Assembly: GCA_013415665.1 (NCBI GenBank)
Contig: JAAEEQ010000006.1
Location: 1 to 37,091 of the forward strand
Source: Methanomicrobiales archaeon
GTDB lineage: Archaea > Halobacteriota > Methanomicrobia > Methanomicrobiales > Methanomicrobiaceae
Direction of reading: 5' to 3'
DNA: 37,091 nucleotides
This document shows, piece by piece, positions 2,926 through 5,011 of this stretch. Made by a program: the position numbers and the translations under genes. Every line of letters starts with the position of its first letter. Position 1 is the first letter of the stretch. The notes below the pieces were generated by a model. That model was given only the letters and a program-made list of their open reading frames with translations. It did not search any database and was not told the DNA's origin.

Positions 2926-3330
2926 ATGAAAGAGGGGCTGCTGACCGAACGACAAAAGGAGGTATTGCGGTACCGGAAGAAGGGGATGACCCAACAGCAG
3001 ATAGCGGACCTGATCGCAACATCGAAGGCAAATGTGTGCACGATTGAGAAAGCTGCGTTTGAAAACATCAGGAAAGCAAAGGAAACGCTTGAATTCCTGT
3101 ACACGCTTGATTCCACGCATCTGTGCACTATCAGAAACGGCACCGATCTGCTCGATGCGGCAAAAGCGATCTTTACCGCCGCCGAAGCGCTGCACATCAA
3201 AGTGCGCTACGACACCATCGGACTTGCCAACCGGCTGCGGGAGTCAAATCCGGAACGTGTCCGCGGCCGTTTCATCCGGGAAGACATTGAGGTCTATCTC
3301 AGTGACGAAGGCGAACTCTATTTCGGATAA
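2926..3330 (+). CDS. tfx: Tfx family DNA-binding protein
   Basis: [61 protein letters not shown]: Tfx-type HTH plus C-terminal domain. Confidence 0.88.
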
Positions 3331-3377
3331 TCCCCATTTTTCCCGCTCCGGCAATCCTGCAATCCCCCGGGGTACGG

Positions 3378-3390
3378 CAAGGTTTATATC
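3378..3390 (+). promoter_or_regulatory. Putative BRE/TATA promoter for the structured region / rpl3 leader
   Basis: aaggtttatatcgat matches an archaeal BRE-TATA; expected start about 25 nt downstream (~3408), immediately before the structured region. Confidence 0.45.
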
Positions 3391-3407
3391 GATATCAGCA
3401 TAATATT

Positions 3408-3970
3408 AAGGAAACCGTTATGCGAAGGTGCGGCGGCACCGGGACGGCCGGCAGAGACGATCACGGCTTCTTCCCCGAAAACCGCCCGGATGAGGGCGTG
3501 GCAGAATGCCCGCCCCCGGCGGGCCGTGCCGCTGCAGTGACGCATAACCGGGAATACCCGCAGTTGTTCTGCGGGGCGACCTTGAGAAGGAGTTGTGCCC
3601 AAGCGACACAACGGGCTGACAGACGTAGGATCTGATCGGGGCGCGGGTGGACGTTTCTGTGCAAACGAGCCCGGGTTTTGCTGATGCAAAACACGCTGCC
3701 GGTATCAGGATCTATTCGCGAGACATGGTGCCTGCCGGTGCACACCGGCGATACATACCATACGCATGCGTTGCTTGAACGCATGTCGTCCGTCACGAGG
3801 GACCGGGTTCCTTTCCGTGGCGGCCATGCGGCAGAACGATGGCGCGGAGTCGGTTCAATCCAGACGCGGTACTCCCGTCTCAGGTGGTGAACCGGCAGGG
3901 CGGATACGCCCTGCCCAGAAACCGGCGGTCGTTGCGGCCACCGGCGGTGCCGGATTCCCGGCACCAATCC
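3408..3970 (+). ncRNA. Candidate large structured RNA or very long 5' leader of the ribosomal protein operon; identity unknown
   Basis: No credible protein in any frame; contains at least 10 perfect stems (5-9 bp), e.g. 3557-3563/3569-3575, 3675-3681/3686-3692, 3765-3772/3778-3785, 3894-3902/3907-3915, 3946-3953/3958-3965, plus a long-range 8-bp helix 3417-3424/3541-3548. Confidence 0.55.
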
Positions 3971-3997
3971 CCGAGCATACGAAAGGATTGATAGAAC

Positions 3998-5011
3998 ATG
4001 GGAAAAGTATCTAGACCACGCAGGGGTTCACTTGCGTACAGCCCCCGGAAGCGTGCACAGAGTCCGGTGCCCAGATACGGGGCATGGCCCGAGCACACAG
4101 GGCAGCCGACCCTGCAGGGATTTGCAGGATATAAGGTCGGCATGACGCATGTCATCATGGTCGATGACCACAAGAACAGCCCGACCGAAGGCAAGGATAT
4201 CATGGTCCCCGTGACCATTGTCGAGATCCCGCCGATGAAGGTGGCAGCCATCCGGGTGTACTGTAAGGATACCTACGGCAAGCATGCGATGGCCGACGTA
4301 TGGGCTCCGAACCTCGATACCTCGCTTGAAGGGCGCATTTCCCTCCCGAAAAAGGAGAATACGGAAGAGGCGCTGGCTGCCGTGAAGGAGGCCGGTGCAA
4401 ACGGCGAAATTACCGATGTCTTCGCTGTCGTCTACACCCAGCCTGCAAAGCTGACCGGTGTGCCGAAAAAAGTGCCCGACTTAATGGAGATGCGTGTCGC
4501 AGGCGGCAGCATCGAAGAGCGGATCGAGTTCGCAGCCGGGCTCTTCGGCAAGGATGTCGACTTCGGATCCGTCATCAAGACGGGACAGTATGTCGATATC
4601 ACCGCGATTACCACCGGCAAGGGAACCCAGGGTCCGGTGAAGCGGTGGGGCATCCAGGTCCGAAAGCACAAGCACTCCCGCGGCGGGAAAAAGCGCCACA
4701 TCGGCAACCTCGGCCCGTGGACGCCGCACCACGTGCGGTGGCAGGTCCCGCAGATGGGGCAGATGGGCTACCAGCAGCGGACCGAATTCAACAAGCGCAT
4801 CCTGAAAGTCGGCGATAACGGCGAGAGCATCAACCCTGACGGGGGTTTCCTCCACTACGGCCTTGTCCGGAATCCCTACGTCATGATCAAGGGATCCATC
4901 CCCGGCCCTGCAAAACGGCTCATCCGTATCCGCCCGGCTATCCGCCAGCATGAACATGTCGAACGCATTCCCGCAATCCAGTACGTGAGCCTGCGGAGCA
5001 AGCAGGGGTGA
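3998..5011 (+). CDS. rpl3: 50S ribosomal protein L3 (uL3)
   Basis: [21 protein letters not shown]...[12 protein letters not shown]...[41 protein letters not shown]. Confidence 0.96.

Follow-up and report, generated by a model that had tools for sequence, protein, structure and literature searches.

A leader RNA of the rpl3 operon in Methanomicrobiales whose conserved core probably outlived the SPOUT methyltransferase gene around it

We analyzed a 37,091-nucleotide stretch of DNA (the window) from the draft genome of a Methanomicrobiales archaeon (G000; GCA_013415665.1, contig JAAEEQ010000006.1). Its nearest named relatives by L3 are metagenome-assembled genomes (MAGs) and isolates belonging to this order. 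In this stretch, 667 nt separate tfx (2926-3330) from rpl3 (3998-5011), the first gene of an operon that continues with rpl4 (from 5018), rpl23 (5765), and rpl2 (6014). The gene tfx is the 5' neighbor of the leader in nearly all of the examined Methanomicrobiales loci. As the original prediction from the sequence had stated, a TATA-like element lies upstream; TTTATAT at 3383-3389 is the sole such match between tfx and rpl3, so that a leader of ∼590 nt starting at ∼3409 would be expected, presumably in the 5' untranslated region (UTR) of the operon. The same TTTATAT followed by AGGAAACCGTTATG recurs in relatives both with and without a coding sequence (CDS) in the interval. All 13 stems listed in the prediction, including the long-range helix, are exact reverse complements at the correct coordinates. 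It had also seen no plausible protein in the interval; none is encoded now, and the core still shows the frameshifted remnants of one. The genes and the parts of the leader outside the core are as follows.

2926-3330, + strand: tfx, the upstream neighbor (from the list of open reading frames [ORFs])
3383-3389, + strand: TATA-like promoter element TTTATAT, the only match in the tfx-rpl3 interval
3417-3548, + strand: 5' domain, closed by the long-range helix GTTATGCG/CGCATAAC (3417-3424 with 3541-3548); z of the 5' flank, about -4.4
3557-3575, + strand: hairpin Pa, CCCGCAG/CTGCGGG, adjoining the core on its 5' side
3580-3884, + strand: candidate helix P1, CCTTGAGA (3580-3587) with TCTCAGG (3878-3884), one bulge
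3734-3749, + strand: hairpin P7, GCCGGTG-CA-CACCGGC, stem confirmed
3760-3970, + strand: 3' hairpin domain, z of -4.3, sequence poorly conserved
3998-5011, + strand: rpl3, the first gene of the downstream operon, then rpl4, rpl23, and rpl2

The expected strong fold was borne out by comparison with shuffled sequences. The minimum free energy (MFE) of 3400-3970 on the + strand was -280.1, compared with -241.5 on average for shuffled sequences (z, -5.14), and 0 of 100 shuffles reached so low a value; the - strand was weaker (z, -3.76). Neighboring CDS controls gave z scores of -0.1 (tfx) and -1.7 (start of rpl3). The stability is located in the flanks, at 3409-3576 (z, about -4.4) and 3760-3975 (z, -4.3), and the evolutionarily conserved core, 3581-3760, had a z score of only -0.7. 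The leader is 63% G+C and 17% T, with T runs of four at most. Among relatives, the core stays constant, and the leader differs greatly in length and in its flanks. The sequence of the hairpin flanks is poorly conserved, with the DNA match to the sister species ending at about 3763, and their pairing is consistent within genera; in five leaders of family f5, 16 of 48 consensus pairs in the flanks had changes on both sides, and the 5' flanks covary within other genera. Read by eye, many relatives carry a hairpin of other sequence at the Pa site and a GGTGCACACC-type hairpin with changed stem pairs at the P7 site. In most relatives that possess P1, it reads CCGAGA/TCTCGG; we treat this helix only as a candidate because it is nearly invariant, shows little covariation, and, while seen in many genomes of f1, f3, and f5, went unseen in most genomes of f4 and all of f6.

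To describe the conserved part, we used a covariance model (R1) made from 20 noncoding cores that were found with an anchor and aligned, the window among them; hits of R1 on these 20 leaders are not independent, since it was trained on them. Most of the 20 cores, folded singly, adopt one common shape, in which hairpin P2 is followed by a closing helix P3 (GATCTGA / TCAG-G-ATC) that runs into P4, with P5 and P6 on top and a tail, TATTCGCGAGAC. The isolated core of the window is an exception, its minimum-energy fold differing from the common shape. The features of the core, with the peptide relics discussed below, are as follows.

3589-3724, + strand: conserved leader core (P2 to P6 plus tail), R1 match
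3592-3612, + strand: helix P2, GTTGTG/CACAAC, 91.5% of cells paired, 7 of 7 pairs with two-sided changes
3629-3712, + strand: helix P3, GATCTGA (3629-3635) with TCAG[G]ATC (3705-3712), enclosing P4, P5, and P6
3645-3672, + strand: hairpin P5, GGGTGGACG.../...CGAGCCC, with an internal loop (covariation alignment)
3675-3692, + strand: hairpin P6, GTTTTGC-TGAT-GCAAAAC, 6 of 6 pairs with two-sided changes
3707-3724, + strand: conserved RNA tail TATTCGCGAGAC and peptide relic RIYSRD (RIYSRDGAFWCTPE in the intact relative); the corresponding codons do not vary in haloarchaea
3586-3648, + strand: EGVVPKRHNGLTDVGSDRGAG, a peptide relic of the lost SPOUT methyltransferase (EGVVLSHNGMIDVGSDECAW in the intact relative)
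3641-3676, + strand: peptide relic ARVDVSVQTSPG in a different frame (intact relative, AWVDVGATSPLP)

The window core (3589-3724) scored 105 bits with R1 (E value, 1.2e-19; window in seed). An R1 core precedes rpl3 in 79 of 80 named Methanomicrobiales L3 loci, and the one locus lacking a match has just 123 nt of upstream sequence. Covariation in relatives, proposed as a check of the structure, was clear. Across 66 R1 matches, 90.5% of cells were paired, compared with 36 to 47% when partners were slid, percentages that are inflated because the alignments were fitted to the model; 23 of 32 pairs had changed on both sides, with 293 two-sided cells versus 89 in shuffled data. P2, P4, and P6 change completely in sequence between families and keep their pairing. 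A kink-turn in P5 was considered by eye and rejected, as the G.A arrangement is unsuitable. Two divergent forms were seen: L272 (G066, f5) has a strongly diverged core (24.9 bits) with a GTTGTTTATACAAC P2 and, of the order members included in the phylum sample, was alone in being missed by R1 under default filters, and L271 (G127, f11) has a very short possible form, GAATCTGACGATGACGCGTTGAATTGACATCAGAATCTTTTAGAG, before rpl3, which apparently lacks P5 and P6 and received no score from R1.

No Rfam family matched the window at the gathering threshold. A relaxed-threshold search of 3300-4010 gave no match to RNase P RNA, SRP RNA, or another large noncoding RNA (ncRNA), the families the original prediction had singled out, and returned instead RF03135, the "L4-Archaeoglobi" ribosomal protein leader, at 3632-3708 (32.3 bits; E value, 2.5e-4). 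This score falls just short of the gathering cutoff of 34.5 bits, and the match covers model positions 1 to 85 of 85. RF03135 has a match in 76 of the 120 genomes of the order, in 59 of them above the cutoff; the sister species in the same genus (G005) scores 44.6 bits, and the window element is orthologous to members that pass. The element is single copy in G000 and, as in the published context of RF03135, lies upstream of the rplC-rplD-rplW-rplB operon. The helices of the RF03135 consensus structure recur both in single-sequence folds and in covariation, and an independent family-wide DNA search found ∼3606-3672 as the sole widely conserved part. Thus, the proposal of a novel structured RNA is only partly right: the region is strongly structured, and its core is homologous to RF03135. 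The main text of PMC7247131 (Eckert and Weinberg 2020) reports RF03135 for Archaeoglobi only, rates it as borderline, and mentions no overlapping gene. The element described here shares with it a homologous core over the whole model, the position before rplC, rplD, rplW, and rplB, and the predicted r-leader role, but occurs in much of the phylum, covaries strongly, has large added hairpin domains, and lies inside a CDS in most lineages while being free-standing in others. The RNA core is a known motif that has been underestimated. As a possible hint to the ligand, we looked for second copies elsewhere; four further low-scoring RF03135 hits, all from f4 genomes, were taken as chance. Three of these (G099:C2:407764-407870, G060:C1:2268209-2268315, and G105:C1:1189841-1189947; L287-L289) fall within an ORF similar to glycogen phosphorylase (CTGATGACCGCCGGGGTGGATG...), and the fourth is at the 3' end of an unrelated ORF.

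The tfx-rpl3 interval of four genomes of the order, G003 and G004 (genus g3, in the window's family) and G033 and G073 (family f2), is 1.06 to 1.6 kb long and holds an intact ORF that contains the core. The ORF belongs to PF02598, a SPOUT-class RNA methyltransferase (E values down to 4e-58). Within the order, PF02598 was found in 5 of 120 genomes, always at the tfx-rpl3 locus, with no detectable copy in the other 115; there was no match anywhere in G000, whose assembly is 89% complete. In a set of 298 genomes from the phylum, PF02598 occurs in 148 and RF03135 in 171. Outside the order, the PF02598 gene directly precedes rpl3 in 12 of 12 examined loci with L3, and the RNA match lies inside the PF02598 CDS in every genome for which coordinates were compared (for instance, in G147, the CDS at 2200132-2200959 encloses the RNA at 2200475-2200574). 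When the two lists of matches were counted, 139 of 140 RF03135-bearing genomes outside the order also had PF02598, G130 being the exception.

These positions bear on whether the region could be an independent gene for a structured ncRNA of ∼560 nt, located by coincidence between tfx and rpl3, an option left open by the original prediction. Its strong fold and its own TATA-like element would fit such a gene, but the element is always immediately upstream of rpl3, even where tfx is not the neighbor, the outgroup core sits inside a CDS abutting rpl3, and length and flanks vary widely around a fixed core. We therefore regard a free ncRNA as quite improbable. The other option, a ribosomal-operon leader, is supported by an element that is single copy in the genome, always directly before rpl3, and covarying in structure.

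Conversely, PF02598 without an RF03135 match occurs in G144, G193 (f18), G222, G245 (f24), and G253 (f28). In the three of these five that were checked (G144, G222, and G253), no SPOUT gene was found adjoining rpl3, which suggests that departure of the gene from the operon entails loss of the RNA. The presence of the element within the enzyme's own mRNA in outgroups would be explained if the RNA were a control or target site for the methyltransferase itself, through autoregulation or as a substrate mimic, and not one for a ribosomal protein. This is very improbable, given that the RNA persists in dozens of genomes without any PF02598 and that the five genomes above have an intact PF02598 without the RNA. 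The RNA has been tied to the rpl3 operon through deep time, independently of the methyltransferase.

The window itself retains pieces of the protein. EGVVPKRHNGLTDVGSDRGAG can be read in one frame and ARVDVSVQTSPG plus RIYSRD in another, and the intact proteins have EGVVLSHNGMIDVGSDECAW, AWVDVGATSPLP, and RIYSRD as counterparts. What remains here is a relic of a SPOUT methyltransferase gene, which was lost only after the RNA had arisen; the original prediction missed both points. The locus resembles those of the PF02598/COG2106 SPOUT methyltransferase (MTH1-type) in its ancestral gene and relic peptides and differs in that the window copy is a dead gene in which the RNA function alone remains. 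When a tree was made from L3, L4, L23, and L2, the coding genera fell within groups of RNA-only genera (g3 within f1, beside the window's genus, and two in f2), an arrangement that requires at least 3 changes under parsimony; by our own count, there were at least four losses within the order if the gene cannot be regained. We considered regain by transfer in place of repeated loss. It is disfavored because all four SPOUT proteins from the order group in a single clade and because the 5' leader of g3 still has the sequence AGGAAACCGTTATG, as in the f1 relatives of this genus; transfer within the order is compatible with the data, which favor vertical descent with repeated loss.

Other lineages hold further stages. 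In G130 (f14), N-terminal, core, and C-terminal fragments of the broken gene are kept along with the RNA (33.5 bits), and in G157, of the same genus code, the gene is intact. G358 (f34) has a compact leader of ∼190 nt consisting of the core only, with a C-G pair of P3 replaced by U-A, a change on both sides. PF02598 is missing from four f8 genomes, all of which have, by eye, a diverged standalone form before rpl3; the sole clearly scoring one is L278 (20.7 bits; E value, 0.0086). From our own reading of these genomes, we take f14 to be Methanocella-like and f8 to be Methanosarcina-like, and the same outcome was reached separately in the two groups. Very probably, then, a stretch that served as both codons and RNA became RNA only several separate times in archaea, the coding function being lost and the RNA kept and enlarged, and the intact gene, broken gene, remodeled leader, and compact leader are living intermediates of this gene-to-regulatory-RNA conversion. 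We found no report of the dual-use origin or of repeated conversion in the main text of PMC7247131 or in a literature search with thin coverage of subscription journals, and both appear unreported.

Selection on the RNA is visible within the coding sequence. In 26 nonredundant haloarchaeal CDSs, synonymous differences were 0.61 of expectation over the core and 1.11 elsewhere (column permutation P value, 3e-4), and 2 of 241 shifted windows were as low, one being the core itself. Many core codons are identical in all 26 haloarchaea (GTG, ACC, GGA, CGG, AAT, AGG, TCT, and TCG among these); the invariant codons spell conserved strands of the RNA, and synonymous codons are frozen in the P3 region. 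Cores embedded in CDSs show covariation as well (90.6% paired; two-sided cells, 94 versus 36 shuffled), with P2 weak or missing in part of this set. Between the close coding species G003 and G004, where changes are few overall, synonymous changes in the core were not fewer than in the rest of the gene. It is important to note that the RNA coincides with a protein-coding segment and that relics of the protein remain, as would be seen if RF03135 and the core merely mirrored conserved SPOUT codons and the noncoding copies were decaying pseudogenes with no RNA function. That is barely conceivable, since in lineages without an open frame the stems have changed in a compensatory manner and unpaired blocks are conserved, the core survives throughout the order while the remainder of the gene can no longer be recognized, and synonymous codons are frozen where the frame is open.

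Taken together, the region is likely a cis-acting 5' leader of the rpl3-rpl4-rpl23-rpl2 operon, of the ribosomal-protein-leader kind, with a core that has outlived a decayed SPOUT gene. We infer that its likeliest function is feedback control through a ribosomal protein, L4 or L3. R1 found no structured match in four 23S rRNA loci (best E value, 0.52), and a word search for 23S rRNA mimicry was negative, so the ligand reading rests on operon content and on the "Prior" rule of the literature, under which L4 was proposed as the RF03135 ligand because it is a known ligand of other leaders (main text of PMC7247131). A leader without rRNA mimicry has been called typical of ribosomal leaders (PMC2864571). 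The lack of mimicry would also suit a cis leader that senses a signal other than the r-proteins of the operon, such as a small molecule, temperature, or an L7Ae-type protein. We consider this unlikely, because the association is exclusively with a ribosomal protein operon, at which r-leaders are the usual solution (main text of PMC7247131).

In this reading of the locus, the ancestral core was embedded in the CDS of a PF02598 SPOUT-class RNA methyltransferase directly preceding rpl3, one stretch thereby serving as codons and RNA. Excess ribosomal protein from the operon, most likely L4 and alternatively L3, would bind the P3 to P6 core and lower operon expression; with the core in a CDS nearly abutting rpl3, binding could affect coupled translation or the transcript. 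The gene then decayed in the lineage of the window, as it did in several more, with the core kept in what would now be an untranslated leader and the remainder of the old gene replaced by lineage-specific stable hairpins. Loss of the gene would leave a long untranslated leader RNA, which the flanking hairpins may protect against cleavage or early termination. In archaea, aCPSF1/FttA-dependent termination works at U-tracts (PMC8716108), and, speculatively, the hairpin packing and U-poverty of the leader may compensate for lost ribosome cover.

Two known systems invite comparison. The bacterial S10-operon L4 leader (Escherichia coli type) controls an operon that encodes L3, L4, L23, and L2; the operon content and the proposed L4 ligand are alike, but it belongs to another domain of life, and no structural or sequence relation is evident. 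The archaeal L1 regulatory site of Methanococcus is also a ribosomal protein control element in a coding sequence, but it is small, lies in L1's own gene, and involves no gene loss that leaves the RNA behind. To our knowledge, the locus provides one of the clearest comparative series of a protein gene ending as a regulatory RNA, as it can be seen with a dual-use gene that is intact, with one that is broken, and with a leader alone. A borderline Rfam prediction becomes a well-supported, phylum-wide control element of the main archaeal ribosomal protein operon, now testable in genetically tractable hosts (Haloferax and Methanosarcina), and serves as a warning that r-leaders can hide in annotated coding sequences and escape intergenic searches.

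The first gene of the operon also varies. The rpl3 of genera g5 and g9 (e.g., G010, G012, G025, and G027) encodes a shorter L3 that PF00297 matches in two pieces, a pattern that resembles the loss of an internal L3 segment and was likewise seen in f10, f18, f24, and f28.
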